From contig NZ_LN890327.1 of the NCBI RefSeq assembly GCF_001458595.1, positions 423,768 to 487,767 on the forward strand: a stretch of DNA of 64,000 nucleotides, in the 5' to 3' direction. This DNA is from Clostridium neonatale (GTDB lineage Bacteria; Bacillota; Clostridia; Clostridiales; Clostridiaceae). Below the pieces are notes generated by a model. It did not search any database and had not been told where the DNA came from. It saw only the letters and a program-made list of their open reading frames with translations. The translations under genes and the position numbers were made by a program. Shown in pieces: positions 44,992 to 62,252 of the stretch (position 1 is the stretch's first letter; each line of letters starts with the position of its first letter).

Positions 44992-45135
44992 TATTAAAAT
45001 TTAATTATGAGAAATAAGATAAATGATATATAAGTATAAAAGTTATTATATTAATTATAGATATAAAAGATTTGATTTTTAGGAATACTGTCACCTTTTG
45101 GTTGAATATATTTTAATAAGAAGGGGGTAGGATTT

Positions 45136-45804
45136 ATGGATTTCAAAGAATTTATAGAAATAGACCGTGAAAAAAGAAGCACAGAAAAATTTGAAGGAAA
45201 TTTTTTGGATTATCTACAGATATTAAAGAATAATCCGGATATACCTAAATTAGGACATCAAAGACTATATGAAATGATTTTAAGCAAAGGAGTTGAAGAT
45301 TTAAAACCTGATGAAAATCCAAGAATAAGAAAAATCTATGGTAACCAAGTAATAAGAAAATATGGTTTCTTTAAGAATGATTTTTATGGTATTGATAAAG
45401 TAATAATGAAGATTGCAAGTTATTTAAAATCTGCGGCAATGAAAGGTGAAGAAGCAAGACAGGTATTATATTTAGTTGGTCCTGTAGGTGCAGGTAAATC
45501 TTCTATAGTAGAAAGTTTAAAAAAGGCATTAGAGGAGTGTGAAGAAATATATGCACTCAAGGGATGCCCAATGCATGAAGAACCTCTTCATCTTATTCCT
45601 AAACATTTAAGAAGCAAATTTGAGGATATGCTAAGTATAAAAATAGAAGGTGATTTATGTCCAGTATGTAAATATAAATTGCTACATGAATTAGATGGTA
45701 AATATGAAGATTTTCCAGTAGAAAGAGTAGGTTTTTCTATTCGCTCAAGGAAAGGTATTGGTGTTGTGCCTCCAGTGGATCCTAACAATCAAGATACTTC
45801 ATAA
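45136..45804 (+). CDS. prkA: prkA 5' part (serine protein kinase, interrupted by a 12.6-kb element)
   Basis: The first 222 codons of PrkA, an AAA-type ATPase/serine kinase of the sporulation prkA-yhbH-spoVR operon. Walker A (GPVGAGKSS, residues 115-123) is present; the Walker B region and the entire kinase C-terminus are missing. The sequence runs to PVDPNNQDTS, where family members continue with a TGSID-type block. Here TAA comes at once, supplied by the inserted DNA. The missing continuation (ILTGSIDISK, then the rest) is found intact at 58440-59696. A strong AAGGGGGT site precedes the ATG. Unrearranged DNA can give only this truncated product; excision would give a 640-residue protein, close to the 631 of B. 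subtilis. Confidence 0.95.
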   Translation: MDFKEFIEIDREKRSTEKFEGNFLDYLQILKNNPDIPKLGHQRLYEMILSKGVEDLKPDENPRIRKIYGNQVIRKYGFFKNDFYGIDKVIMKIASYLKSAAMKGEEARQVLYLVGPVGAGKSSIVESLKKALEECEEIYALKGCPMHEEPLHLIPKHLRSKFEDMLSIKIEGDLCPVCKYKLLHELDGKYEDFPVERVGFSIRSRKGIGVVPPVDPNNQDTS

Positions 45805-45817
45805 TTTATTATTTAGG
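45778..45817. other. attL-type junction of the prkA-intervening element
   Basis: Left half from prkA (GATCCT at 45778, AACAATCA), then core AGATACTTCA (45792-45801), then element arm TAATTTATTATTTAGG (45802-45817). The core plus its preceding A is repeated exactly at the other end (58429-58439). Confidence 0.88.
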
Positions 45818-45866
45818 ATGTAATTTGAACTGTTATCAATATAATATTATTTTGGGGTGTGAGAAT

Positions 45867-46088
45867 ATGAGGGATATATTTATGTATATATCAGAAGAAG
45901 AATATTATAGGGTTTGTGAAGAAATAGATGATGGACAAACCATTAATATATATAAGAGTAAAAATATAGAAATAGACATTAAGAGAAGTGGAAAAAAAAT
46001 ATATAAATTTATAGCTGACTATGGTGAATGTAGTTTGAATGAATGCCTAGAAGATATGTATTTAAAAAAAGATAAAATTATAATATAA
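45867..46088 (+). CDS. Small protein at the element's left end, candidate recombination directionality factor
   Basis: A 73-residue protein, start ATG 45867 after TTGGGGTG; the frame extends 42 bases further without a site. It is acidic in the first third (ISEEEYYRVCEEIDDG) and lysine-rich near the end. No family is recognised. It sits 50 bp inside the left junction and 55 bp before the recombinase. Small proteins of this size next to serine recombinases act as excision factors (for example SprB of SPbeta and the 72-residue factor of the C. difficile skin element), so that role is proposed from position and size only. Confidence 0.6.
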   Translation: MRDIFMYISEEEYYRVCEEIDDGQTINIYKSKNIEIDIKRSGKKIYKFIADYGECSLNECLEDMYLKKDKIII

Positions 46089-46143
46089 AGATTATTATAA
46101 TTTTAAATCAACAATTATATAACTTTAAAAGGGGAAAAATCTT

Positions 46144-47652
46144 ATGCGGAAAGTAGCATTCTTATCAAGAGTATCAACATTAGATCAGCATTCATCAATA
46201 GATAATCAAGAAGAAGTATTTAAAAATTGGTTAAAAAGAAATAGCGGATGTATTTTATATAAGATCTATACAGATGAAGGGATAAGCGGTGCAAAAGGAT
46301 ATAAAAGAAAGCAATGGCTTAATATGCTGGAGGATGGAAAAAAGAAAAAATTTGATATACTAATATCTAAATCTTATTCTAGATTTGGGAGAAATCAAAG
46401 AGAAACATTAGATGCCATTGCAATGCTAAGAAATAATGGAATACGAATTATATTCCTAGAAGATAATTTGGATAGTGAGCAGGATTCTAATAAATTTGGA
46501 TTATTTGCATGGCTTGCAGAGCAGGAAGCTCAAAAAACAAGTGAAAGAATTAAGATAGTATGGGAAAATTACAATTCAGAGGGAAAGGTTCATGTAACTC
46601 TGGCTCCTTATGGTTATGATTATAATAAAGAAATAAAGAATTTTGTAGTAAATGATATTGAAGCTGATATAGTTAGAAAAATATTTTCATTATATATAAA
46701 AGGAAATGGATATAATAAGATAGCAAAATTATTAACAGAAAATAATATACCTACTAAGAGAAATGGAAAATGGGCCGGAACTACAGTTGGTAATATGCTG
46801 AAAAATGATTTTTATTTAGGTGTGCTTACACAGGGCAAAACAAAAACTATTGATGTTACAATGGATACTAAAAAGAAAATTCCTAAAGAAGAATGGATTA
46901 AGCATATTAATAATCATGAAGCAATAATTTCTAAAGAATGTTTTGAAAGTGTTCAATATAATATTAAGAAAAGGTCAAAAAGAATTAAGGAATTTTATAA
47001 TGAGACAAGTATAAAACAAAGCAATTCTTCATTATTCAGTAATTTACTTATATGTGGAGAATGTAACTCTAGATTATCTATTAAAAGAAAGAAAAAGTTA
47101 AATAATTATAAACCTTTTTATAATTGTATAAATTATGAGTTAAGAGGAATAAAGGTATGTGGACATAGATCTAATTTTATTTGGGAAGATATATTAATAA
47201 ATTATATAAAAGAAAAGCTGGATAGTATAGTGAAAAATAATTATAAGGAATTAAAAAATAAGATAAAACAAAAAAATACATGTAATATAAAATATGAAAA
47301 AGAATTGAAGTGTATAGAAAATAAAATAAAAGATCAGATAAATATTTCGACTAGATTATTATGCGAATATACTAAAGGAAATGTTGGTGAAATGAATTAT
47401 AAATTACAAAATGAGAAGATAGAAAAGATACTCAAGCATTTAGTCAATAGAAAAGAAGAATTAAATTCTTTCGCAAATAGCGGAAGAAAAATAAAGCAAG
47501 AAGAAAAATTATTGATAGGTGGAATAAATGATTTGCTTGAAACTAAAACAGAAGACTGGAATAATGCAATGATAAAATCAATAATAGATAATATTGTAGT
47601 TTATATCGATGGAACTATTGAGATATATTTCAAGTATTTAAATGATAAATGA
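46144..47652 (+). CDS. Large serine recombinase (SpoIVCA/integrase type)
   Basis: A 502-residue site-specific recombinase. The N-terminal resolvase domain (1-145) has FLSRVSTLDQ with catalytic Ser11 and SKSYSRFGRNQRETLD with the active-site arginines. A recombinase domain (about 160-270) follows, then a zinc ribbon (LICGECNSRL, with later Cys residues in YNCINYELRGIKVCGH). The last part is a coiled-coil (about 350-460). The length equals B. subtilis SpoIVCA (500). An AAAGGGG site precedes the ATG. It appears intact, and its position 340 bp inside the left junction makes it the enzyme that moves this element. Confidence 0.95.
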   Translation: MRKVAFLSRVSTLDQHSSIDNQEEVFKNWLKRNSGCILYKIYTDEGISGAKGYKRKQWLNMLEDGKKKKFDILISKSYSRFGRNQRETLDAIAMLRNNGIRIIFLEDNLDSEQDSNKFGLFAWLAEQEAQKTSERIKIVWENYNSEGKVHVTLAPYGYDYNKEIKNFVVNDIEADIVRKIFSLYIKGNGYNKIAKLLTENNIPTKRNGKWAGTTVGNMLKNDFYLGVLTQGKTKTIDVTMDTKKKIPKEEWIKHINNHEAIISKECFESVQYNIKKRSKRIKEFYNETSIKQSNSSLFSNLLICGECNSRLSIKRKKKLNNYKPFYNCINYELRGIKVCGHRSNFIWEDILINYIKEKLDSIVKNNYKELKNKIKQKNTCNIKYEKELKCIENKIKDQINISTRLLCEYTKGNVGEMNYKLQNEKIEKILKHLVNRKEELNSFANSGRKIKQEEKLLIGGINDLLETKTEDWNNAMIKSIIDNIVVYIDGTIEIYFKYLNDK

Positions 47653-47709
47653 AATAATATTTTAATATGAGAATTAATACAGCTTTAATATAGTAGAGTT
47701 TTTAAATCT

Positions 47710-47744
47710 AAAACACCATAGAAAACAATTTTCTATGGTGTTTT
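47710..47744 (+). terminator. Terminator after the recombinase gene
   Basis: AAAACACCATAGAAAA pairs perfectly with TTTTCTATGGTGTTTT around a 3-base loop. Confidence 0.85.
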
Positions 47745-47974
47745 AAAATAAAGTAAATGTTGAAATGAATAATATTTTGAAAAAATATATAATGTTTAAG
47801 CAAAAAAATGTCGATAATATGATTAAATAAAAATAATATATTAATATAAATAATTATTTTATAAGATACATGAAAACGATAAAAGCATATATATTATAAA
47901 TAACAATGTATTAAAAATTTAATATGCGCACTTTTACAAACGATTGCGAAGCTTTATTCTTAGGAGGTAAAAAC

Positions 47975-49993
47975 ATGAAGAAAAATACGTTTTATAGTAT
48001 TGGAAACAAAATAATGTTTCAAATAATAGTATTGGTTATAGGAATATGTTGTTCCTTATCGTTCTTATCGTATTATAAAACAAAGAGTAATATTTTAGAA
48101 ACTACATATAATACTTTAGCAGAAAGAACAAAAGACAGTGCTACATCAATTGAAAGAGAGTTTTATTATAGGCAAGAACAACTTAACTATATTTCATCAT
48201 TACCAGAAATACAATCAATGGATTGGAAGATACAAAAGCCAGTTCTTTTAGAAGAAATAGAAAAATGGAATTATGATGGAATGTTTATTATGGATACTAA
48301 TGGATATGGGTATTACGCATTGGATTCAGAAGAAGAAATTAAAGATCAATCGAATGATGAATTTTTTAAAACAATGCAAGAAAAAGGCTCTTTTATTACT
48401 GAACCATACATAAGACAGGAAGAAAAAGAATCAATAACGACTATTGTAACACCAATAAATAGTGAAAATGGAACAATAGTAGGCTATTTATGTGGTACAA
48501 TTAAATTAGATGATGTAAATAATATTGTTCAATCTGTTAAGATCGGAAATACTGGTTATGCATTTTTATTAAATGATTCAGGAAATTTTGTGGCACATAA
48601 AAATATGGATTTAGTATTTAATGAAACTAATTTTATAGATGCTTTTAATAACGATTCCGATGAACAAGTTAATGAAAAATTAGAAGAAGTTCTTAATAAA
48701 ATAAAATCAAAAGAAACATCTATAGATGAAATTAAGAGTAAAAGTACAGATATTTTTATGTCATATACTGAAGTGAAAAATACACCTTGGTCTATTTGTA
48801 CAGTTGTTGCTTCAGAGGATGTGTTAAGTGGAATTAATCAGATTGCAGTTAAACAAGTTATTTTAACTATAGTAGCTATAATAATAGGGGGAGTAATATC
48901 ATTATTAATTAGAAAATATTTATCAGTAGAAATAAATTATATAAAGAAATATTCATCTGAATTATCTGCATATAATTTAGGATATAGAGGAAAAGCAAAA
49001 AGGCAGGATGAGTTCGGACAAGTTATAGAAGCATTAAACTCAGGTGTAGATACTCTTGATTCAACAATGAAGGAAGTAAAATTAAATAGTAGTGAAATAA
49101 GTGCAAGCAGTGAACAAATAGATTCTATGTTATCAGAAATGTCATTTGAATTAGAACAGGCGGCAGCAACAACGGAGGAGATTTCAGCTAGCATGGAAGA
49201 ATGTAATGCATCTTTGCAGGAAGTTAATTCGATTTCACAATCTATAAATAATAATACGCAAGCGTCTGTGAATAAAGCACGTGAAAGTTTAGAATTGGCA
49301 GATAAGATTGAGAAAGATGCAAGTGCTGTTCATATTGCAACTATCGAATCAAAAGAAAATATTGAAGAAATTTATAAAAAATGTAGTGTGAAATTGAAGG
49401 AAGCATTAGAAAAAATATCTGTTGTTGAAACTATTTCACAAATGTCAAATAGTATATTAGATATTTCAGAGCAAACTAATTTACTTTCTCTCAATGCTTC
49501 AATAGAAGCTGCAAGAGCTGGTGAACATGGTAATGGGTTTGCTGTAGTTGCAGAAGAAGTAAGAAAATTAGCAGAACAGTCAGCATCAACAGTTAGTAAT
49601 ATACAATCTAATGTTGATAAGGCATTAAATGCGGTTAAAGATTTATCTAATACTTCATCAGAATTATTATCTGTAGTTGAAAAAGATATACTGAATGATT
49701 ATAAGAAATTAATTGAAGTAGCATTATCATATCAACAGGCTGGAACTAATGTTAAAGGTATGGCATCAGAGTTCTCGAGTATATCAGATGAAATTTCAGA
49801 TTCAATAAATACTATAACAATGAGCATTAAAGAACTTACAGAAGCAATTTCAGTAGTATCTGAATCGTCTGTAACAATTGCAGAAAATATGAACAATATT
49901 AATACAAAGAAGGAATCCATAATATCTAATTCAGCTGATAATAAAAACAAGTCTTTAAAATTATCTAAATTAGTAAATAAATTTAAATTATAA
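47975..49993 (+). CDS. Methyl-accepting chemotaxis protein with dCache sensor (element cargo)
   Basis: A 672-residue chemoreceptor with a transmembrane helix at about 13-33, a double Cache extracellular domain at about 35-285 (typical [18 protein letters not shown] and [20 protein letters not shown]), a second helix at about 292-312, and a signalling domain with tip [20 protein letters not shown]. The ATG at 47975 follows TTAGGAGGT; an earlier in-frame ATG at 47924 has none. Ligand unknown; dCache domains often bind amino acids or other small molecules. It lies between recombinase and kdp genes and has its own terminator. Confidence 0.9.
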
Positions 49994-50027
49994 ATATATT
50001 TTTAATAAAAGAGAGCTATAGAATACT

Positions 50028-50092
50028 AAAATGGCCTTATTATAGCAGATACTCATAAAAAGAGTCTATCTACTATATAAGGCCATTTTTAT
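50028..50092 (+). terminator. Terminator after the cargo chemoreceptor
   Basis: AAAATGGCCTTAT (50028-50040) pairs with ATAAGGCCATTTTT (50077-50090). Confidence 0.85.
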
Positions 50093-50139
50093 ACTGGATA
50101 GTTATCTTTTATTTTTTATATAAATATTCAAATACTATC

Positions 50140-50152
50140 TTAACACAATCTT
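50140..50152 (+). promoter_or_regulatory. Candidate KdpE box upstream of kdpFABC
   Basis: TTAACACAATCTT, 81 bp before kdpF. The identical 13-mer occurs upstream of kdpD (54780-54792), the only other kdp transcription start expected. It overlaps TTAA direct repeats spaced 11 bp, the usual spacing of OmpR/KdpE-type sites. Inference. Confidence 0.5.
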
Positions 50153-50232
50153 AATTCAAAAATAAAAACCCTAACACCATACTAATTTCTTTGGTGCTAA
50201 ACTAATGCTATCAAAAGGAAGGGGGAATTTAA

Positions 50233-50319
50233 ATGAATATATTAGTAAGTATTATAGGATTAGTTGCATTTATATATTTCATTTATTTAACAAATATTTT
50301 ATTAAGAGGTGATAAGTAA
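50233..50319 (+). CDS. kdpF: KdpF small membrane subunit
   Basis: A 28-residue single-helix peptide (MNILVSIIGLVAFIYFIYLT, then NILLRGDK) that stabilises the KdpABC potassium pump. A strong AGGAAGGGGG site precedes the ATG. Its stop overlaps the kdpA start as TAATG, showing translational coupling. Too short for routine gene calling. Confidence 0.88.
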   Translation: MNILVSIIGLVAFIYFIYLTNILLRGDK

Positions 50320-52058
50320 TGACAAATGTATTATTACAGTATGGACTGTATCTTTTAATTCTAATAGTACTAGCAATACCGCTTGGAAATTATATAGGTA
50401 AAGTAATGAATGGAGAAAAAGTATTTTTATCTAAACTATTAGTTCCATGCGAAAATGCTATATATAAAGCTTTACGTATAGATAAAGAAGAAGACATGGG
50501 ATGGAAAAAATATTCAATTTCAGCTTTAGCGTTTTCTATTATTAGCTTTGTAGTATTATTTTTACTACACATGTGTCAAGGGTTTTTACCATTAAATCCA
50601 GAAAAGTTGCCAGGAACAACTTGGGATTTAGCATTTAACAATGCAGTAAGTTTTGTAACAAATACTAACTGGCAATCATATTCAGGTGAAAGTTCATTAA
50701 GTTATTTCACACAGATGATGGGATTAACAGTACAAAATTTTGTTTCAGCTGCAGTTGGTATATCGGTATTATTTGCATTAATTAGAGGATTTATAAGAGC
50801 TAAAGAAAATGGAATAGGAAATTTTTGGGCTGATATTACTAGAACACTTCTTTATATATTAATTCCACTTTCAATAGTAGTATCAGTAGTTCTAGTATCA
50901 CAAGGAGTTGTTCAAAACTTTAAGCCATATGAAACAGTTTCTTTACTGGAACCTATAACACTTGACGATGGAACTGTAGTTACAGAAGAAGTGGTTCCAC
51001 TTGGACCAGCAGCAAGCCAAGTGGCTATAAAACAATTAGGAACAAATGGTGGAGGATTCTTTGGAGCTAACTCAGCCCACCCCCTTGAAAATCCAAATGC
51101 ATTATCTAATTTATTTGAAATGATATCAATATTATTAATACCAGCAGCATTATGCTTTACATTTGGTAGAAATGTAAAAGATAAGAAACAAGGAATAGCA
51201 TTATTTTTAGCAATGGGTATTATGCTAGTTGCAACACTTGGAATAATAGGAGTAAATGAACAAAATGCAACCCCACAATTAGCAATGAATGGACAAGTTG
51301 ACCTATCAGCAGTTGACCAGGCAGGTGGAAATATGGAAGGGAAAGAATCAAGATTCGGTATAGCAACATCCACTACATGGTCAGCATTTACTACAGCTGC
51401 ATCTAATGGTTCAGTAAATGCAATGCATGATAGTTATACACCAATTGGTGGTATGATTACAATGATTCAAATGCAGTTAGGTGAAGTTATATTTGGAGGA
51501 GTCGGCTGCGGACTTTATGGAATGTTAAGTTTTGCAATATTAACAGTATTTATGGCAGGGCTTATGGTTGGCAGAACGCCTGAATATTTAGGAAAGAAAA
51601 TAGAACCATTTGAAATGAAAATGGCCGTATTAGTATGTTTGGCAACACCTATAGCAATATTAATAGGTAGTGGAATAGCTACATTATTACCTTCAATGGT
51701 TGATAGTTTAAAAAATAGTGGAGCTCATGGATTTTCAGAAATACTTTATGCGTACTCTTCAGCAGGTGGTAACAATGGTTCTGCATTTGCTGGATTAAAT
51801 GCAAATACACCATTTTTAAATGTAAGTTTAGGTTTTGTTATGTTATTTGCACGTTTTGTTCCTATGGTATGTACTCTTGCAATAGCAGGAAGCTTAGTTA
51901 AAAAGAAAAAGGTTGCAGAAAGTGAAGGAACATTACCAACACATAATGCTATGTTTGTATGTCTTTTAATATTTGTAGTATTACTTATTGGAGCATTAAG
52001 CTTCTTTCCAGCATTAGCACTTGGACCTATTGCTGAATTCTTTCAAATGTTAGGTTAA
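50319..52058 (+). CDS. kdpA: Potassium-transporting ATPase subunit A
   Basis: A 579-residue channel-like subunit that selects and moves K+. Ten or so hydrophobic helices are seen with selectivity-loop motifs [31 protein letters not shown] and [13 protein letters not shown]. It starts at the ATG overlapping the kdpF stop. It forms the KdpFABC complex with the next genes. Confidence 0.96.
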
Positions 52059-52072
52059 ATGAGGTGACGAAT

Positions 52073-54139
52073 ATGAATGAAAATAAGAGTAGTTTTGCTG
52101 ATAAAAAAATGATAATAAGAGCCATTAAGGATTCTTTTATAAAATTATCACCTAAAACTCAAATGGAAAATCCAGTTATGTTTCTTGTATACATTTCATC
52201 TATATTAACAACTATTTTATATGTAGTTTCACTAGTTGGTATTAGAGATGCAAAGCCAGGTTTTATACTGGGAATTACAATAATTCTATGGCTTACAGTA
52301 TTATTTGCAAACTTTGCAGAAGCAATAGCACAAGGGCGTGGTAAAGCACAAGCAGATGCGCTAAGAGCTAGTAAAAAGGATGTAGAAGCTCATAAAATAC
52401 CTTCAGTAGATAAAAAAGATGAAATAATAAAAGTTTCATCAGCATTACTTAAAAAAGGTGATATAGTGATTGTAAAAGCTGGCGAACAAATACCAGCAGA
52501 TGGTGAAGTAATTGATGGTGCAGCATCAGTTGATGAAAGTGCAATAACAGGAGAATCAGCACCTGTTATAAGAGAAAGCGGCGGAGATAGAAGTGCTGTT
52601 ACTGGTGGTACTACAGTTACTTCAGATTGGTTGGTTATTGAGATTACAAGTGAAGCTGGAGAAAGCTTTCTTGACAAAATGATTGCAATGGTTGAAGGAG
52701 CTTCTCGTAAAAAGACTCCTAATGAAATAGCATTACAAATTTTATTGGTTGCATTAACAATTATATTCTTATTAGTTACAGTTTCATTATATTCATATTC
52801 AATTTTTTCAGCTAATCAAGCAGGAAAAGTAAATCCAATCTCAGTAACTTCTTTAGTTGCGTTACTTGTATGTTTAGCACCAACAACAATAGGTGCATTA
52901 CTTTCAGCTATTGGTATTGCTGGTATGAGTCGTTTAAATCAAGCTAATGTTTTGGCAATGAGTGGACGTGCCATTGAAGCAGCGGGTGATGTAGATATAT
53001 TAATGTTAGATAAAACAGGAACTATTACTCTTGGTAATCGTCAAGCTTGTGAATTTATACCAGTAGATGGTGCATCAGAAAAAGAATTAGCAGATGCAGC
53101 TCAGCTTTCATCATTAGTAGATGAAACACCAGAAGGACGTAGCATAGTAGTTCTTGCTAAGGAAAGGTTTGGAATTAGAGAAAGAAATATAAGTGAGCTT
53201 AATATGGAATTTGTACCATTCACAGCAAAGACTCGTATGAGTGGTGTTAATTTTAATGGAAATGAAATTCGTAAAGGTGCGGCAGATTCAGTAAGAGCGT
53301 ATGTAATATCAAAAGGTGGAAAATACAGTAAAGAGTGTGATGATGCTGTTACTCAAATAGCAAATAAGGGTGGAACTCCTTTAGTTGTTGCTAAAAATGA
53401 TAAAATACTTGGAGTAGTTTATTTAAAAGATATTATTAAACAAGGTGTGCAAGAGAAATTTGCTGATTTAAGAAAAATGGGTATTAAAACTATTATGATA
53501 ACTGGAGATAACCCATTAACAGCAGCAGCAATTGCGGCAGAAGCTGGTGTTGATGATTTCTTAGCAGAAGCTACTCCAGAAGGAAAATTAACTATGATTC
53601 GTGATTTTCAAGCTAAAGGACATTTAGTTGCTATGACAGGTGATGGAACCAATGATGCACCAGCACTTGCACAAGCTGATGTTGCAGTAGCAATGAATAC
53701 TGGTACACAAGCTGCAAAAGAGGCAGGAAACATGGTTGATTTAGATTCATCACCAACAAAATTAATAGATATAGTTAGAATAGGAAAACAATTATTAATG
53801 ACTCGTGGTAGTTTAACAACATTCAGTATTGCTAATGACCTTGCTAAATATTTTGCAATAATACCAGCTTTATTCATTGGGCTGTATCCAGGACTATCAG
53901 CATTAAATATCATGAATTTGCATAGTGCAGAAAGTGCAATTTTTTCAGCAATAATATATAATGCATTAATAATAATAGCATTAATTCCATTAGCCCTTAG
54001 AGGTGTAAAATATCGTGAAGTTTCAGCAGGAAAATTATTATCAAGAAATCTTCTTGTATATGGTTTAGGTGGTATAGTGGTACCATTTATAGCTATAAAA
54101 ATAATTGATGTGATTATTACTTCAATAGGTATTATTTAA
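52073..54139 (+). CDS. kdpB: Potassium-transporting ATPase subunit B (P-type ATPase)
   Basis: The 688-residue catalytic subunit. The phosphorylated Asp313 lies in [16 protein letters not shown] (actuator), the KTRMSGV block, and the [16 protein letters not shown] hinge are all present, so it looks functional. The ATG at 52073 follows GAGGTG; a GTG at 52064 is within that site. It is 14 bases after kdpA. Confidence 0.96.
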
Positions 54140-54154
54140 GAAAGGATGATTTTA

Positions 54155-54760
54155 ATGAAAGATTTTAAAGCAGTATTTCCAAAAGCTTTAATAATATTTT
54201 TAATATTTACAGTTTTATGTGGAGCAGTATATACATTGGTCATAACAGGTATCTCTCAAATATTATTTCCCAAACAGGCTAATGGAAGTATTATAGAGAT
54301 TGATGGTAAGAAATATGGAAGTGCATTATTAGCACAGCAATATACTGATGAAAAACATTTATGGGGAAGAATAATGAATATTGATACAGACACTTTTACA
54401 GATGATAAAGGGAATAAGGTCGCATATGCGTGGGCATCAAATTTAACTCCAACAAGTGATGAATTACAGTCAGTAATTAATGAACGCATTAAAAAAATTA
54501 AAGAAGCACATCCAGAAAAAGGGGACACTCCTATTCCAGTTGATTTAGTAACATGTTCAGGAAGTGGATTAGATCCACATATTTCAGTAGCAGCAGCTGA
54601 GTATCAAGTGGATCGGATTGCAAAAAATAATAATATGTCAAAAGAAGAAGTACAATCAATAATTGATAAATATACAGATAATAAATTGCTAGGAGTGCTT
54701 GGAGAAAAAACAGTTAATGTATTAGAGGTAAATCTTGCACTTGATGGAATTTTGAAATAA
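54155..54760 (+). CDS. kdpC: Potassium-transporting ATPase subunit C
   Basis: A 201-residue subunit with one N-terminal transmembrane helix (about 9-32) and an extracellular domain bearing LVTCSGSGLDPHISVAAA, the KdpC signature. The start at 54155 is placed after AAAGGATGA. It completes kdpFABC. Confidence 0.95.
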   Translation: MKDFKAVFPKALIIFLIFTVLCGAVYTLVITGISQILFPKQANGSIIEIDGKKYGSALLAQQYTDEKHLWGRIMNIDTDTFTDDKGNKVAYAWASNLTPTSDELQSVINERIKKIKEAHPEKGDTPIPVDLVTCSGSGLDPHISVAAAEYQVDRIAKNNNMSKEEVQSIIDKYTDNKLLGVLGEKTVNVLEVNLALDGILK

Positions 54761-54779
54761 TATAAAGAAAATAATAATA

Positions 54780-54792
54780 TTAACACAATCTT
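54780..54792 (+). promoter_or_regulatory. Candidate KdpE box upstream of kdpDE
   Basis: TTAACACAATCTT, identical to the 13-mer before kdpF, lies 19 bp after the kdpC stop and 104 bp before kdpD. It suggests that KdpE controls its own operon too. Confidence 0.45.
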
Positions 54793-54795
54793 TAT

Positions 54796-54838
54796 ACTAT
54801 AGCTAAAATATTTATAAAATAATTATTTTGGCTATAGT
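54796..54838 (+). terminator. Hairpin between kdpC and kdpD
   Basis: ACTATAGCTAAAATA pairs with TATTTTGGCTATAGT, followed by ATAATTTATTT. It could terminate kdpFABC or attenuate read-through into kdpDE. Confidence 0.65.
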
Positions 54839-54895
54839 ATAATTTATTTACAAGAAGATTTTATAAAATTAAAATTGATTTTGGAGGTGGAATAT

Positions 54896-57598
54896 ATGAT
54901 AGAGGAGCGACCTAATCCAGATGCAGTCTTAAAACAAATCTTAGATGAAAAAGAAGAAAATGTGAAGAGGAAAGGAAGACTAAAAATATTTTTTGGATAT
55001 GCAGCAGGAGTTGGAAAAACATTTGCTATGCTTGAAGCTGCACATGAAGCAAAGAAGAGTGGAATTGATATAGTAGCAGGATATATAGAACCGCATACAA
55101 GAGTTGAAACACTTGCACTTTTAGAAGGTCTTGAGATGCTTCCTAATTTAAAAATACAGTATAAAGGAATTACATTAAATGAATTTGATCTTGATGGAGC
55201 AATCAAAAGAAAGCCACAACTAATTTTAGTAGATGAGTTAGCTCACAGTAATGCAGAACAATGCAGGCATATAAAGAGATATCAAGATATAAAAGAATTG
55301 CTGGAAAATGGAATAGATGTTTATACAACAGTAAATGTTCAGCATATTGAAAGTTTAAATGATATTGTAGCATCAATAACAGGTGTAATTGTACGTGAAA
55401 GGGTTCCAGATAGTGTTTTTGATGATGCTGACCAAGTTGAATTAGTAGATATTGAACCAGAAGATTTAATTGCACGATTAAATCAAGGAAAAATATATAA
55501 AGAAAATCAAGTAAAAAGAGCGCTAGTAAACTTTTTTACAAAGGAAAAATTAGTTGCATTGAGGGAAATTGCATTAAGACGTACGGCTGATGCTGTAAAT
55601 AAGAAAATAGATAAGGAAAGAGAAAATAACAAGAGTGGCTATTATACTGAAGAACATATTTTAATATGTCTTTCAAGTGCACCAAGTAATGCCAAAGTGA
55701 TTAGAACTGCAGCTAGAATGGCATCCGCATTTGATGGACTATTTACAGCGTTATTTGTTGAAACTCCAAATACTAAAGAATTCGAAAAAGATAATAGAAT
55801 TAGTCTGGAGAAGAATTTAAAATTAGCTGAACAACTTGGAGCAAGAATTGCGACTGTATATGGAGAAGATATTGCGAGTCAAATATCAGAATATGCAAAA
55901 ATAAGTGGAGTATCTAAAATTGTACTTGGTAGATCAAATACGAGGAAAGGATTACTTATAAATAAGAAAACTCTAGTAGATAAGCTGACTGAGCTTGCAC
56001 CTAATATAGATATCTACATTATTCCAGATAATTCAAAAAAGTATAATAAAATAAATATTAAAAGAATAGAAATACCTAAATTTACAGTAATAGATATTTC
56101 AAAAACATTAGGAGTATTATTAATTACTACAATAACTGGATTAATATTTTATAATTTAGGATATGGGGAATCGAATATTATTATTATGTATCTTTTGGGA
56201 GTTTTAATTACTTCTATTATCACAAGTGGTAAGACTTATGGAATATTAATATCAATACTGGGAGTTTTAACATACGATTTTATGTTTACTGAACCTAGGC
56301 TTACATTAAAGGCATATGATGCTAGCTATCCAGTTACATTTTTAGTTATGCTTGTATCTTCTGTTTTATCTAGCAAATTAGCAACAAGAGTAAAGATAGA
56401 AGCTCAAAATTCAGCAAAAAAAGCTTATAGAACCGAAGTGTTGTTAGAAACCAGTCAGAAATTGCAACTTGCAAAGAGTAAAGAAGAGATATTTAATGAA
56501 ACAGCATATCAAACAAAGAAATTATTGGATAAACCCATAATATTATATATACAAAATGATAAAGGAAATTTAGAACCAATTATATTTAAAAAAGATAATG
56601 ATACGGATATTAAACAATATATAACAGAAGAAGAGCATGCAGTTGCAGAATGGGTGTTTAAAAATAAAAAACATGCAGGAGCAACAACTGATACATTACC
56701 AGGGGCTAAGTGTCTTTATTTAGCAATAAGAAATTATGAAAAATCATTTGCAGTAATTGCAATTCCTATAGATAAAAATGAAATTTTAGATCCATTTGAA
56801 AAGAATTTATTAATTGCAGTTTTAGGTGAAAGTGCAATATCCTTAGAAAAAGAGGAGATTAATATAAGTAAAAATAAGATAAAGATGAAAGCAGATCAGG
56901 AAAAACTAAGGGCAAATTTGTTAAGAGCTATTTCACATGATTTACGTACTCCACTTACTAGTATATCAGGAAATGCAGGAATTTTGATGAAAAACTCTAA
57001 TATATTGAATGATGAAAAAAAGCAGGAGCTGTATTCAGATATTTATGATGATTCAATGTGGCTAATAAACTTGGTTGAAAATCTATTATCTATAACACGT
57101 ATTGAAAATGGTTCAATGAATATAAAAATAGAACCTGAGTTAATTGATGAAGTTATACAGGAAGCTTTACTTCATGTTAATAGAAAGAAATCAGAATACA
57201 ATATAGAAGTATTGGTAGAAGATGATTTGATGATGGCTAAAATGGATTCCAGACTAATAATTCAAGTAATAATAAATATTGTGAATAATGCTATAAAATA
57301 TACGCCAAAAGGTTCAAATATAAGAATTTCTGCAGCTAGAAAAGAAAAAATGATTGTAGTTGAAATTTCTGATAATGGATATGGAATTAGTGATTCGGTT
57401 AAAGACAAGATATTTGATATGTTTTTTACAATAAATGATAAGCATGGAGATGGCAGAAGAGGCCTTGGATTGGGATTGTCACTATGTAAGTCAATAATAA
57501 ATGCTCATGGCGGAGAAATTTACGTAAAAGATAATATACCTAAGGGAAGTACTTTTGGATTTACTTTACAGGAAGAGGAGGTTAAACTAGATGAATAA
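54896..57598 (+). CDS. kdpD: Osmosensitive K+ channel sensor histidine kinase
   Basis: A full-length 900-residue KdpD. The N-terminal KdpD domain has Walker A GYAAGVGKT (34-42) and LILVDELAHSN. A UspA-like domain (about 250-370), four clustered transmembrane helices (about 395-500) and a GAF region follow. The HisKA has phospho-His681 (RAISHDLRTPLTSISG), and the HATPase_c ends the protein (DNGYGISDSVKDKIF, GLGLGLSLCKSI). It senses K+ limitation and phosphorylates KdpE. The ATG at 54896 follows TTGGAGGTGG. It overlaps kdpE by 8 bases. Confidence 0.95.
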   Translation: MIEERPNPDAVLKQILDEKEENVKRKGRLKIFFGYAAGVGKTFAMLEAAHEAKKSGIDIVAGYIEPHTRVETLALLEGLEMLPNLKIQYKGITLNEFDLDGAIKRKPQLILVDELAHSNAEQCRHIKRYQDIKELLENGIDVYTTVNVQHIESLNDIVASITGVIVRERVPDSVFDDADQVELVDIEPEDLIARLNQGKIYKENQVKRALVNFFTKEKLVALREIALRRTADAVNKKIDKERENNKSGYYTEEHILICLSSAPSNAKVIRTAARMASAFDGLFTALFVETPNTKEFEKDNRISLEKNLKLAEQLGARIATVYGEDIASQISEYAKISGVSKIVLGRSNTRKGLLINKKTLVDKLTELAPNIDIYIIPDNSKKYNKINIKRIEIPKFTVIDISKTLGVLLITTITGLIFYNLGYGESNIIIMYLLGVLITSIITSGKTYGILISILGVLTYDFMFTEPRLTLKAYDASYPVTFLVMLVSSVLSSKLATRVKIEAQNSAKKAYRTEVLLETSQKLQLAKSKEEIFNETAYQTKKLLDKPIILYIQNDKGNLEPIIFKKDNDTDIKQYITEEEHAVAEWVFKNKKHAGATTDTLPGAKCLYLAIRNYEKSFAVIAIPIDKNEILDPFEKNLLIAVLGESAISLEKEEINISKNKIKMKADQEKLRANLLRAISHDLRTPLTSISGNAGILMKNSNILNDEKKQELYSDIYDDSMWLINLVENLLSITRIENGSMNIKIEPELIDEVIQEALLHVNRKKSEYNIEVLVEDDLMMAKMDSRLIIQVIINIVNNAIKYTPKGSNIRISAARKEKMIVVEISDNGYGISDSVKDKIFDMFFTINDKHGDGRRGLGLGLSLCKSIINAHGGEIYVKDNIPKGSTFGFTLQEEEVKLDE

Positions 57599-58304
57599 AC
57601 CACATATTTTAGTAGTAGAAGATGATAAAGCTATTAGAAATTTAATTATAACTACATTAGAGACTCAAAATTATAGATATCATATTGCAGAGAATGGTGA
57701 ATCAGCTATTATGGAAGCTGTAACATCAAAACCTGATATAATAATTCTAGACTTAGGACTTCCAGATATTGAGGGTATAGATATTATAAGAAAGATAAGA
57801 ACGTGGTCTAATGTACCAATTATAGTAGTTAGTGCTAGAAGTGAAGATAAAGATAAAATTGAGGCGCTTGATTCTGGCGCTGATGACTATTTAACAAAGC
57901 CATTTAGTGTAGATGAATTATTAGCCAGATTAAGAGTTACATTAAGAAGGATTAATTATAGTAATGATATAAAAGATAAAAATAGCAGTTTATTTATTAA
58001 TGGAGAACTAAAAATAGATTATGCAGCAAGGTGCGTTTTTATGAAAGATAACGAAATTCACCTAACACCTATAGAATATAAATTATTATGTCTATTAGCA
58101 AAAAATGTTGGTAAAGTTCTAACTCATAACTTTATTTTAAAAGAAATATGGGGCAATGTTTTACCTAATGATACACCTTCATTAAGAGTTTTTATGGCAA
58201 CTCTTAGAAAGAAAATCGAAGAAAAGCCATCAGCTCCCAAATATATTCAAACTCATATAGGTGTTGGATATAGAATGATAAGAATTAATGATAATATAGA
58301 ATGA
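57591..58304 (+). CDS. kdpE: KdpE response regulator (OmpR family)
   Basis: A 237-residue regulator. The receiver has acidic VVEDD, phospho-Asp54 (IIILDLGLPD) and Lys in LTKPFSVDELL. The C-terminal winged helix (about 130-232) carries HLTPIEYKLLCLLAKNVGK and IQTHIGVGYRM. It activates kdpFABC under low K+ in known systems. Last gene of the element; a strong terminator follows. Confidence 0.95.
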   Translation: MNKPHILVVEDDKAIRNLIITTLETQNYRYHIAENGESAIMEAVTSKPDIIILDLGLPDIEGIDIIRKIRTWSNVPIIVVSARSEDKDKIEALDSGADDYLTKPFSVDELLARLRVTLRRINYSNDIKDKNSSLFINGELKIDYAARCVFMKDNEIHLTPIEYKLLCLLAKNVGKVLTHNFILKEIWGNVLPNDTPSLRVFMATLRKKIEEKPSAPKYIQTHIGVGYRMIRINDNIE

Positions 58305-58320
58305 AATTACTGTATATATA

Positions 58321-58360
58321 AGGGGTATCGCATAAAAAATCTGCGATACCTCTTTTTTAT
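58321..58360 (+). terminator. Terminator after kdpE
   Basis: AGGGGTATCGCA pairs with TGCGATACCTCT, followed by TTTTTT. It insulates the element from the 3' half of prkA. The 70 bp up to the junction contain GTATCTT (58397-58403), an inverted partner of AAGATAC in the core. Confidence 0.9.
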
Positions 58361-58413
58361 GCATTATAAATTCAAATTAAACTTTGTAGGTGTATAGTAT
58401 CTTCAGGCTTGTC

Positions 58414-58453
58414 CCTAAACAGTAAATTAAGATACTTCAATATTAACAGGATC
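58414..58453. other. attR-type junction of the prkA-intervening element
   Basis: Element arm CCTAAACAGTAAATTA (58414-58429), core AGATACTTCA (58430-58439), then prkA ATATTAAC and AGGATC (58440-58453). The element arm here is an inverted near-copy of the arm at the left junction. Confidence 0.88.
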
Positions 58454-59696
58454 TATAGATATATCAAAAATGGATTTATATTCAGAAGATGACCCAAGAA
58501 TATTCTCATTAAATGGTGCATTTAACGTTGGTAATAGAGGTTTAGTTGAATTTATTGAAGTATTCAAAAATGATGTTGAGTATCTTCATACAATAATTAC
58601 AGCAACACAAGAAAAATCTGTTCCATCACCTGGAAAAGGATCAATGATTTATTTTGATGGTGTTATCGTAGCTCATTCAAATGAAGCTGAATGGAATAAG
58701 TTTAAATCAGATCATACTAATGAAGCTATTTTAGATAGAATAGTAAAAGTTGAAGTTCCTTACTGTTTAGAGCTTGATGAAGAAGTGAAAATATATGAAA
58801 AAATATTAAAGAAGAGTACTTTTAAAGCACATATAGCACCACATACAATTGAAATTGCTGCTATGTTTGCAATACTTTCAAGGCTTATACCTTCATCCAA
58901 GGTAGATACTATGACAAAGCTTAAGATTTATAATGGTGAAGAAATAGTTGAAAAAGGAACTACAAAGAAGATTGATATAGGTGAACTTAGAGAAGAAGCA
59001 GGGCAATATGAAGGAATGAAAGGAATAAGTACAAGATTTATAATAAAAGCTATTGATAATGCACTCTCAGAATCTGAATATGACTGCATAAATCCTCTTA
59101 GTATAATGGAAAGCATGATCAAGTCTGTTAAAGAAATGGACATTGGTGCTGATGATAAGAAGAAATATCTTGCATTTATTCAAGATAGTATTAGAAAAGA
59201 ATATAATAAAGTTCTTGAAAAAGAAATTACTAAGGCATTTATACATTCATTTAGAGAACAGGCAGAAAGTCTATTTAATAACTATATAGATAATGCTGAA
59301 GCATATGTAAACAAAACAAAAATTAAAGATGATTCTACAGGAGAAGAATTAAATCCAGATGAAGATTTCATGAGAAGCATAGAAGAACAAATAGGTGTAT
59401 ATGCAGCATCAAGCAAAGGATTTAGATCTGATGTAACTTCTTATATGTTTTATATTGTTAGAAATGGCGGAAAGCTTGATTATACATCTTATGAGCCATT
59501 AAAAGAAGCTATAGAAAAGAAATTAACAGCTTCAGTTAAGGATTTATCAAGAATAATAACAAAATCAAAAGTTAGAGATAAAGAACAAGCGGAAAAATAT
59601 GATTCTATGGTTGAAGAGATGAAAAGAAATGGATATTGCCTTCACTGCTGCGATGTAATATTAAAATATGCAGCTAATAACTTATGGAGGGATTAA
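58440..59696 (+). CDS. prkA: prkA 3' part (serine protein kinase, interrupted)
   Basis: Codons 223-640 of PrkA, beginning ILTGSIDISK and continuing as MDLYSEDDPRIFSLNGAF, with the AAA remainder (GLVEFIEVFKNDVEYLHTII) and the PrkA C-terminal kinase-like domain, including YCLHCCDVILKYAANNL. An ATG at 58470 exists but has no ribosome site. The frame is blocked upstream by a TAA inside the element (58428-58430), so this part is not an independent gene. No frameshift or internal stop is present, which argues that the sequence is under selection as part of a full protein. Confidence 0.95.
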   Translation: MLTGSIDISKMDLYSEDDPRIFSLNGAFNVGNRGLVEFIEVFKNDVEYLHTIITATQEKSVPSPGKGSMIYFDGVIVAHSNEAEWNKFKSDHTNEAILDRIVKVEVPYCLELDEEVKIYEKILKKSTFKAHIAPHTIEIAAMFAILSRLIPSSKVDTMTKLKIYNGEEIVEKGTTKKIDIGELREEAGQYEGMKGISTRFIIKAIDNALSESEYDCINPLSIMESMIKSVKEMDIGADDKKKYLAFIQDSIRKEYNKVLEKEITKAFIHSFREQAESLFNNYIDNAEAYVNKTKIKDDSTGEELNPDEDFMRSIEEQIGVYAASSKGFRSDVTSYMFYIVRNGGKLDYTSYEPLKEAIEKKLTASVKDLSRIITKSKVRDKEQAEKYDSMVEEMKRNGYCLHCCDVILKYAANNLWRD

Positions 59697-59704
59697 AGTA
59701 GTAT

Positions 59705-60880
59705 ATGGCTATTTTTAGGGATTATACTAACAATCCAATTGATCATGACAGATCCATAGAAGATAGAAGAAGGCATAGGCAGCTTGTAGAAAAATCAATA
59801 AAAGAAAATCTAGGTGATATATTATCAGAAGAAAGTATAGTTGGAGAGAGTAAGAATAAAAAATTTAAAATACCTATAAAGGGGATAAAAGAATATCAGT
59901 TTGTTTATGGAAAAAATTCTAAAGGGGTAGCTACTGGAGTTGGAAATGAAAAACGTGGACAAAAGATAGGAAGTGGTGAAAATGCTCCAGGTCAAGGAAA
60001 CAAAGGAGCGGGAAATTCTGAGGGAGATGATGTATATGAAACTGAAATAACCTTGGAAGAGCTACTTGACTATATTGCTGAAGATTTGAACTTACCTAAT
60101 TTAGATGAAAAGAAGTATTCAGAAATAATAAATGAAACTAGTGGTAAGAAAAAAGGTTATCAAACACATGGAATAAGACCACGTTTGGCTAAGAAAAAAA
60201 CAGTAGCAACCAAGATTGCTAGAAAGCAATGTAAAAAGAGAGCTTTAAGTGAATTAGGCAATGAAGAAGAGCTTGAAAGATTTCCATTTATTGATGATGA
60301 TTTAAGATATTACAGGGTAAAAGTAAAGCCTAAAAAGGTTAGTAATGCTGTTATGATTTTCATAATGGATGCATCAGGTTCTATGGATGTTACAAAGAAA
60401 TATTTGGCACGTTCTTACTTTTTCGTATTGGCTACTTTTTTAAAAAGAAAATATAACAACATTGCTTTTGAATTTATATACCATACAACAGTGGCTAAAA
60501 GAGTAGATGAATATGAATTTTTTCATAGATCTGAATCAGGAGGAACTTATATATCAAGTGGAATTAATGAAGCATTAGCATTAATAGAAGAAAAATATCC
60601 AATTGCTGCATGGAATATTTATCCTATATATGCTAGTGATGGCGATAATTGGTCTGAAGACAATGAGAGAGCTGTTAAAGCTGTTAAGAAAATTTGTGAA
60701 ATAAGTAATATGTTTGGGTATGCAGAACTTTTACCGTCAACATATACAACAACCATGTATCATAAATTCAAGAAAGAAATAACAAATGAAAAATTTGTTC
60801 CTGTAATAATAAAGGAAAAGAAAGATTTATGGGAAGCACTAAAAGTTATGCTTAGGAAGGAGCTAAAGGAGGAAGGTTAG
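59705..60880 (+). CDS. yhbH: Sporulation protein YhbH (DUF444)
   Basis: A 391-residue protein of the DUF444 family found with prkA and spoVR in spore formers. It has the conserved N-terminus [20 protein letters not shown] and a C-terminal von Willebrand A-like domain with a MIDAS-like motif [10 protein letters not shown] and a later SGGTYISSG. The exact role is unknown, but mutants in Bacillus affect spore traits. It starts 8 bases after the prkA stop and is co-transcribed with it. GGAGGG is 14 bases from the ATG, a long spacing. Confidence 0.93.
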
Positions 60881-60881
60881 T

Positions 60882-62252
60882 TTGGATTATACAGTAGAGG
60901 ATTTAAAAATATGGAATGAAAAGATAGAAAAAAAGGTTGAAGAATATGGATTAGATTTTTATCCACAGGAATTTGAAATGATAGGATTTAATGATATGAT
61001 TGGATATGAGTCTTATGTGGGTATGCCATCAAGATATCCCCACTGGAGCTTTGGAAAATCATATGAGAAAAATAAAATGTTATATTCTTTAAATCTTACA
61101 GGGCTTCCTTACGAAATGGTTATTAACTCTGATCCTTGTTTAGCATATTTGATGAAAGACAATACAGTGTTGCTTCAAATATTAACAATGGCTCATGTAT
61201 ATGGTCATAATGATTTTTTTAAGAATAATAGATTATTTAAACAAGGAACTAAAGCTAAATATACTTTAGAAATGTTCAATTTGAATTCAAAGATTATAAG
61301 AGAATATATAGATGATCCAAGTATTGGATATGAAAAAGTTGAAAGAATATTAGATGCAGCTCATGCTATAAAATATCAAGTTGGAAGAACAATTGGAGTT
61401 AAAGAGTTATCAGATAATGAAATAAAAGAAAGCATAATAAAGGATTATGAGAGTAAAAAAGAAAATCGAAGTTTTTTAGATTCTTATGAAGAAATTAAAT
61501 TGCCTAATTTAGATAAAATACCATTAGAGCCAGTAGATGATATTATGGGATTTATAATAGAGTATGGTTCTCTTAAGGAATGGGAAAAAACAATTTTAAG
61601 TATTGTAAAAAGAGAAGCTGAATATTTTCTTCCTCAAATAGAGACTAAGATAATGAATGAAGGATGGGCAAGTTATACTCATTATAATATATTAAAGCAG
61701 CTAGATTTACCACAAGAGCTATATTTAGAGTTTATTAAGAGGCACAATGATGTAATAGCACCAGCTATAGGTGGCTTAAATCCATACTATATAGGATTTA
61801 AAATGTTTGAAGATATAGAAAAAAAATATGGAAAAGAAAAAATTTTTGAAGTTAGAGCTATCGAAAGAGATTCTTCATTTTTACGTAGATATTTAACACA
61901 AGAATTGTGTGAAGAGTTAAATCTTTTTGAGTACAATCAAAGAACATTCGATACAATTATTGAAGAAATATCAGATGAAGATGGCTGGAAAACTATACGT
62001 GATACATTAAGTTATACATGTGGTATGGGAGGAATACCATATGTAAGAATCATTGATCTTAATAAAAATGATAGAACTCTGACTTTAGAAAATGTATATG
62101 ATGGTCGAACTTTGGATTTATCATATGCAAAAGCAACCTTACAATATATACAAGAGCTTTGGGGATATGATGTTAAATTAATTACTAAAGGAAGTGATAA
62201 GCAAAGCGTAGTTATGTTATGTAATTCAGAAAAACAAATAAATATATTATAA
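60882..62252 (+). CDS. spoVR: Stage V sporulation protein R family
   Basis: A 456-residue SpoVR protein, involved in cortex formation in Bacillus. Typical blocks are the PSRYPHWSFGKSYE N-terminal motif, LAYLMKDNT, MAHVYGHNDFFKNN and NEGWASYTHYN with metal-binding-like His/Glu residues. It starts with TTG at 60882, 2 bases after yhbH, with an AAAGGAGGAAGG site just upstream. Third gene of the prkA operon. Confidence 0.93.
   Translation: MDYTVEDLKIWNEKIEKKVEEYGLDFYPQEFEMIGFNDMIGYESYVGMPSRYPHWSFGKSYEKNKMLYSLNLTGLPYEMVINSDPCLAYLMKDNTVLLQILTMAHVYGHNDFFKNNRLFKQGTKAKYTLEMFNLNSKIIREYIDDPSIGYEKVERILDAAHAIKYQVGRTIGVKELSDNEIKESIIKDYESKKENRSFLDSYEEIKLPNLDKIPLEPVDDIMGFIIEYGSLKEWEKTILSIVKREAEYFLPQIETKIMNEGWASYTHYNILKQLDLPQELYLEFIKRHNDVIAPAIGGLNPYYIGFKMFEDIEKKYGKEKIFEVRAIERDSSFLRRYLTQELCEELNLFEYNQRTFDTIIEEISDEDGWKTIRDTLSYTCGMGGIPYVRIIDLNKNDRTLTLENVYDGRTLDLSYAKATLQYIQELWGYDVKLITKGSDKQSVVMLCNSEKQINIL

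Follow-up and report, generated by a model that had tools for sequence, protein, structure and literature searches.

Does a prkA gene that lies in two pieces on either side of a 12.6-kb element still serve its host? The question is raised by a 64,000-nucleotide stretch of the Clostridium neonatale genome (contig NZ_LN890327.1, positions 423,768 to 487,767; here called the window). In Bacillus subtilis, prkA is described as transcribed by sigma-E and its loss as lowering sporulation, which agrees with the first-pass annotation of this DNA, where it was called a mother-cell sporulation gene. We consider it quite probable that the element is a precisely self-excising insert at prkA codon 222/223 that would make prkA whole on leaving; both the programmed excision and its likely limitation to the mother cell are what we infer from the sequence. 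A skin-like element in prkA, as that annotation proposed, is the best-fitting reading because of the empty sites in relatives, the association of the split with a large serine recombinase (LSR), the recurrence of the split in other genera, and the conservation of the two halves.

The divided gene and its uninterrupted relatives

The element interrupts the coding sequence of prkA itself, with one half of the gene on each side, as in intervening elements of the skin kind:

45082-45112, + strand: prkA promoter GGAATA-N16-GAATATATT, sigma-E-like by consensus
45136-45801, + strand: prkA 5' half (222 codons), containing the P-loop GPVGAGKS and followed by an element-located TAA (45802-45804)
45791-45801, + strand: left copy of the 11-bp core repeat AAGATACTTCA
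45802-45817, + strand: attL element arm, inverted match to 58414-58429
58414-58429, + strand: attR element arm, inverted match to 45802-45817
58429-58439, + strand: right copy of the 11-bp core repeat AAGATACTTCA
58440-59693, + strand: prkA 3' half (418 codons), with its stop codon at 59694-59696

Both parts are open in frame, and the Pfam PrkA domains are divided between them: positions 2 to 201 of AAA_PrkA (358 positions) are matched by the 5' half and 203 to 358 by the 3' half, which also matches the PrkA C-terminal domain in full (1 to 255 of 255). The halves are intact, as the annotation had held, all coordinates it gave are right, and the 11-bp repeat it reported at their meeting point has exactly two copies and no third in the 64 kb (chance mean, 0.12; two copies in 0 of 100 shuffles). 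The core sits in conserved codons (...PNNQDTS). LSR sites typically consist of inverted arms around a short core (PMC5595907). The arms of the window element match in inverted orientation at 13 of 18 positions, a match equaled in 17 of 20,000 random pairs.

Exact restoration was tested on uninterrupted relatives and not by way of the joined halves. All 68 genomes of the genus group, which includes Clostridium sp. DL-VIII (G028), C. moniliforme (G016), and C. saudiense (G026), contain matches to both halves, and in 62 of them the prkA frame is continuous (640 to 659 amino acids [aa]), the half-matches abutting with zero bases between them. Intact, element-free prkA genes, which the annotation had advised looking for among related Clostridium genomes, are thus common, and its claim that removal of the element restores the gene exactly holds. 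With the halves abutting in these relatives, the 11-bp repeat is so placed that excision would restore the frame. Residue 222 is the last of the 5' frame in the window genome, in DL-VIII, and in G061, a Clostridium metagenome-assembled genome (MAG) of which only 3'-half residues 113 to 418 are seen, on a separate contig. As for the remaining genus genomes, G062 and G033 are broken at contig ends, and the frame of G005 is 600 aa long and ends within the 3' half.

At the prkA site of G062, two contig segments (L036:1-55 and L048:3111-3165) share an exact 55-bp overlap, as two sequenced forms would give. This genome was rejected as population evidence of excision and was not counted as split, since the break-point 15-mer occurs only at the two contig ends and the genome lacks an LSR relative at E <= 1e-60; nor did it yield an element contig.

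The closest LSR relatives accompany the split. At E <= 1e-60, relatives of the window LSR occur in 8 of the 68 genus genomes, and the top three (100, 71, and 55% identity) are those of the three split genomes. The other five (47 to 53%) have a continuous prkA; in four of these the LSR adjoins a mannose-1-phosphate guanylyltransferase gene, and in C. saudiense the contig ends there. At E <= 1e-100, LSR relatives occur in 12 of 206 family genomes, including two further genomes with split prkA, G196 and G199.

Recurrence of the split and apparent selection on the halves

At seven loci, prkA is split at codon 222 or no more than approximately 3 codons away and an LSR of this kind is present; both ends of the element are seen in six of them (3.5 to 43 kb):

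C. neonatale, window locus (G000): 12.6 kb
Clostridium sp. DL-VIII: 43.3 kb, on one 6.48-Mb contig; small open reading frame (ORF) and LSR 55 and 71% identical to those of the window
Clostridium MAG G061: left side only
C. mediterraneense (G196): 3.5 kb, on one 2.63-Mb contig
Clostridium MAG G199: 4.6 kb
Marinisporobacter MAG: 4.9 kb
Bacillota MAG: 7.9 kb

G199 was counted because the element and the 3' half share a contig that ends within the 5' half; it also has a contig overlap on the left side. G200 was left out of the count, as its match stops 49 bases short of the contig end. Inverted arms also pass in DL-VIII (3 of 20,000 random pairs) and in the Bacillota MAG (7 of 20,000). That the split is an assembly artefact is hardly credible: the host genome is a 4.7-Mb draft in 16 contigs, which would allow for such errors, but the window is internal to a contig of 833,594 bases, and the same LSR-bearing split stands on the single contigs of DL-VIII and C. 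mediterraneense.

Beyond these genomes, a search of a 5.8-billion-protein set with the 5' half returned 419 relatives, and among the 120 matches listed the last PrkA-like residue is 222 to 225 in 36, with at most 4 for any other end residue; because the query stops at residue 222, shorter proteins are at a disadvantage but later-ending ones are not. A second query, 320 residues taken from an uninterrupted relative, favours long proteins, and at least two of the best 120 of its 1256 matches (P0012 and P0008) are of the split class. In a tree of 83 rows, of which 44 are split, the split state needs 22 changes, at least 16 of them forced by well-supported branches; most split rows are metagenome proteins seen without their neighbours, and gains are not distinguishable from losses. 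All nine rows of the clade that holds the window are split (support, 99/98).

Selection on the halves was read from columns identical in 28 uninterrupted relatives, 111 in the 5' half and 300 in the 3' half. The window has changed 1 of the 111 and none of the 300, DL-VIII none and 1, and G061 1 (5' half only), while uninterrupted genomes left out in turn have changed 0 to 4 and 0 to 3, respectively. The counts rise in more distant split genes: C. mediterraneense differs at 4 and 9 positions, G199 at 12 (3' half only), the Marinisporobacter MAG at 10 and 38, and the Bacillota MAG at 12 and 42. The split loci tested showed no stop or frameshift in any of their halves, and decay of the halves by frameshifts, which the annotation had named beforehand as a sign that would refute it, was seen in none of the seven loci. 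The members of the all-split clade have each changed 1 to 3 of the 111 residues, although the path from the base of the clade to the window amounts to approximately 0.23 changes per column. Conservation of invariant residues in so diverged a clade indicates that the split gene is not dead, and the split prkA appears still to be under selection.

These results bear on the possibility that the element is an ordinary genomic island for which prkA is a landing site left permanently broken, the halves being intact because the insertion is recent. Genes are frequent landing sites of integrases, and presence or absence at the strain level is likely: the 5' half of one split protein (P0016) is 99% identical to the uninterrupted L027 (G019), which suggests that an insert may be present in some members of a species and absent from others. 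The gene can also be missing altogether. Among the matches listed at E <= 1e-20, which do not include the lowest-scoring family matches, 158 of 206 family genomes and 35 of 391 class genomes have a 5'-half match, and 48 and 356, respectively, have none. We nevertheless regard a permanently broken gene as unlikely, considering the divergence of the all-split clade with so few invariant residues changed, the wholly unchanged invariant residues of the window 3' half, the open frames in the tested halves, and a promoter that has been kept.

Contents of the element and a proposed trigger

Eight ORFs, all on the same strand as prkA, lie between the halves, and yhbH and spoVR follow prkA on that strand:

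45867-46088, + strand: 73-aa ORF, likely recombination directionality factor (RDF); a relative accompanies the LSR in 14 of 17 loci
46144-47652, + strand: LSR, 502 aa (PF00239, PF07508, PF13408)
47924-49993, + strand: methyl-accepting chemotaxis protein, cargo (PF02743, PF00015)
50319-52058, + strand: kdpA, cargo (TIGR00680)
52064-54139, + strand: kdpB, cargo (TIGR01497)
54146-54760, + strand: kdpC, cargo (PF02669, TIGR00681)
54875-57598, + strand: kdpD sensor kinase, cargo (PF02702)
57591-58304, + strand: kdpE response regulator, cargo (PF00072, PF00486)
58320-58360, + strand: terminator-like hairpin and T tract, shortly 5' of attR
59705-60880, + strand: yhbH (TIGR02877), 8 bp from prkA
60882-62252, + strand: spoVR (NF008737, SpoVR family; score under the curated cut-off), 1 bp from yhbH

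The kdpABCDE genes, the chemoreceptor, and the 73-aa ORF are parts missing from the first-pass annotation. That annotation had placed a recombinase of SpoIVCA size just inside the left end; the size is fair, but the nearest solved structure is YokA, and the gene is the second ORF inside, behind the 73-aa ORF. The LSR has the domain order of large serine recombinases (Resolvase, Recombinase, zinc ribbon), and its S11, which we take to be the catalytic serine, is invariant in 11 of 11 aligned sequences. Among solved structures the LSR best matches YokA of SPbeta, presumably the protein called SprA, and the YokA-YotN chain is also nearest (9dxh, 9dxd); these structures could serve as templates for the LSR and its partner. 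No phage structural or replication gene was found among the eight ORFs (Pfam for all eight, NCBIfam for six).

The 73-aa ORF has no Pfam or PHROG match, and the named members of its 47 database relatives are hypothetical or uncharacterized proteins. A relative was found with the LSR in 14 of the 17 loci, the window included; none was found at the Marinisporobacter locus or at a partial Defluviitaleaceae locus, and in G077 the small ORF is assigned by position only. Its size, place, and pairing make the 73-aa ORF the likely directionality factor, the part played by the 72-aa CD1234 in the C. difficile skin element.

The box GGAATA-N16-GAATATATT upstream of prkA, which we take to be a sigma-E promoter, is the best site of the whole window on both strands (16.4; next, 14.0) by a matrix built from 23 of the 28 uninterrupted relatives, and it is kept in the window, DL-VIII, G061, and C. 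mediterraneense. The small ORF starts 62 bp and the LSR 339 bp after the stop codon of the 5' half. The stretch from the 5' half to the small ORF folded into no stable hairpin, and a consensus scan that allows loops of 3 to 8 gave no terminator there; the same scan missed the hairpin at 58320-58360, whose surroundings (58312-58372) fold at -24.1 kcal/mol (z, -7.9). The LSR is co-oriented with prkA in six of the seven elements.

With the small ORF and the LSR directly behind the 5' half and no terminator found between them, the prkA promoter would itself drive excision. If that promoter is sigma-E dependent in this host, a transcript would run from the 5' half through the small ORF into the LSR, the small protein would act as directionality factor for the recombinase, and the split prkA would trigger its own repair, mother-cell transcription making the two proteins with which the element leaves. 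Excision would cut the recombinase genes off from the prkA promoter and join prkA, yhbH, and spoVR to it. Until excision, the hairpin near attR would keep element transcripts out of the operon, and the spore chromosome would retain the element.

Precise excision could also proceed without sporulation control, at low frequency or on a stress cue in any growth phase, with only restored cells able to sporulate. The yin element in yabG was reported as excised in a fraction of the population at every time point (PMC10747680), and the kdp cargo together with a role of PrkA in osmotic stress described for another spore-former (PMC13001217) would fit a stress cue. Placement of the small ORF and the LSR directly behind the 5' half, along the prkA promoter, speaks for control by that promoter instead, and we consider excision free of sporulation control quite unlikely. 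Very unlikely is an arrangement in which the halves are made separately and assemble into a working split PrkA with no excision at all. Both halves are open and conserved, as such an arrangement would have them, but the split cuts through one AAA domain and the 3' half begins mid-domain, no ribosome site is evident at its first ATG (58470), which lies just downstream of the strong terminator-like hairpin, and the tails of the 5' halves vary between carriers.

Several results weigh against a self-excising, promoter-controlled element. The LSR of G061 opposes prkA, and read-through from the prkA promoter is therefore not general; a separate promoter for the small ORF is not clear either, its best DL-VIII site not being outstanding (12.4). 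Inverted arms are above chance in only three of the six elements tested and not in G196, G199, or the Marinisporobacter MAG. The window halves have slightly higher dN/dS values (0.101 and 0.040) than 14 of the uninterrupted relatives have among themselves (0.065 and 0.026), dS approaches saturation, and the divergence of the window 5' half exceeds what the 3' half predicts. Finally, the LSRs of the prkA type do not form one clade (2 changes), and one of the manC type branches among them, so that the LSR alone does not predict the target.

The kdpABCDE operon is complete inside the window element (50319-58304) and was found in no other carrier within the sequence fetched around it. The element copy is the sole KdpA match of the host genome at E <= 1e-60, and the excised state would therefore be without KdpA. 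A KdpA match at this threshold is present in 30 of the 68 genus genomes.

Known intervening elements and other targets of the recombinase family

We read the window element as a new prkA-intervening element of the skin, SPbeta, and gin kind. In the C. difficile skin element, sigK is split, and excision by the CD1231 recombinase with the 72-aa CD1234 directionality factor rebuilds the gene (PMC5025042). The window element likewise splits a clostridial mother-cell gene and pairs an LSR with a small candidate factor (here 502 and 73 aa), but its target is prkA and not sigK, and its small ORF and LSR stand directly behind the 5' half. CD1234 may also lie apart from the small ORF family of the prkA elements. 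The SPbeta prophage in spsM of B. subtilis, with SprA and SprB (PMC4191935), is also an LSR element with an RDF in a mother-cell gene, and the window LSR is nearest to its YokA; the eight ORFs of the window element, in contrast, include no phage gene in the scans made. Similar in being a non-phage element with an LSR and an RDF (here a candidate) in a mother-cell gene is gin (GirC, GirX) in gerE of B. cereus, which is 28.6 kb long and has three recombinase genes (PMC5595907), whereas the window element has one recombinase and kdp cargo, and its split recurs in several genera.

The vrin element, named in PMC4191935 as splitting spoVR of Geobacillus, affects the same prkA-yhbH-spoVR gene group but another gene in another bacterial class. 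In C. botulinum, yin splits the sporulation gene yabG, has its recombinase gene downstream of the 5' part in a similar orientation, and was detected as an excised circle, with partial excision at all times tested (PMC10747680); unlike the window element, it is reported to be prophage-like and restricted to a single strain. The vfbin element splits spoVFB and is described as working like skin, SPbeta, vrin, gin, and yin.

The consulted portions of PMC5025042, PMC4191935, PMC6957869, PMC10747680, and PMC5595907 do not mention prkA, and no prkA- or spoVB-intervening element was found in the literature by title or abstract. The annotation, which knew of no described prkA-intervening element and asked for a literature check, agrees with that search, although the 2013 report of Abe and co-workers may contain an earlier mention. 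Two features stand out: the split recurs at one prkA point across several genera, and spoVB is another gene split by this recombinase family. If these readings are true, prkA and spoVB join the few genes made whole by DNA excision in the course of sporulation, such elements are recurrent in clostridia and not odd single cases, and a prkA annotated as broken may be a working gene. As a natural series at a single site, the six complete elements could reveal how small an excision unit can be; the C. mediterraneense element, at 3.5 kb, holds little beyond the recombinase and the small protein. The recombinase and small-protein pairs, with their natural attachment sites, would be a new family useful as a recombination tool.

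A wider picture is possible and is offered only tentatively: the codon-222 region of prkA may be a clostridial hot spot for self-excising elements, the window prkA may be its own trigger, yhbH and spoVR may be switched on with it as one operon while the mother cell loses its sole Kdp potassium pump, and one LSR family may have moved among prkA, spoVB, and a sugar-nucleotide gene.

Judged by domain matches, the same LSR family also splits spoVB. In a Eubacteriaceae MAG (L081:2474-11924), SpoVB model positions 2 to 131 and 133 to 488 flank a 7.9-kb element with an LSR and a small ORF. The Defluviitaleaceae MAG (L086:1220-4217) has an N-terminal SpoVB part and a cut-off LSR only.

Family members also lie in or beside a mannose-1-phosphate guanylyltransferase gene at four loci (L059, L060, L061, and L062), and in G197 (L071:9176-19044) pieces of such a gene, of the sugar-nucleotide type, stand at both ends of approximately 9 kb. 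The related element of C. saudiense (L063) adjoins ORFs that, by eye, look like phage structural genes. The window host has two more serine recombinases, adjacent to each other and 31% identical to the window LSR (G000:C15:303944-306245), and in Clostridium sp. DSM 17811 (G077, L068) an LSR relative lies approximately 3.5 kb behind an intact spo0A.

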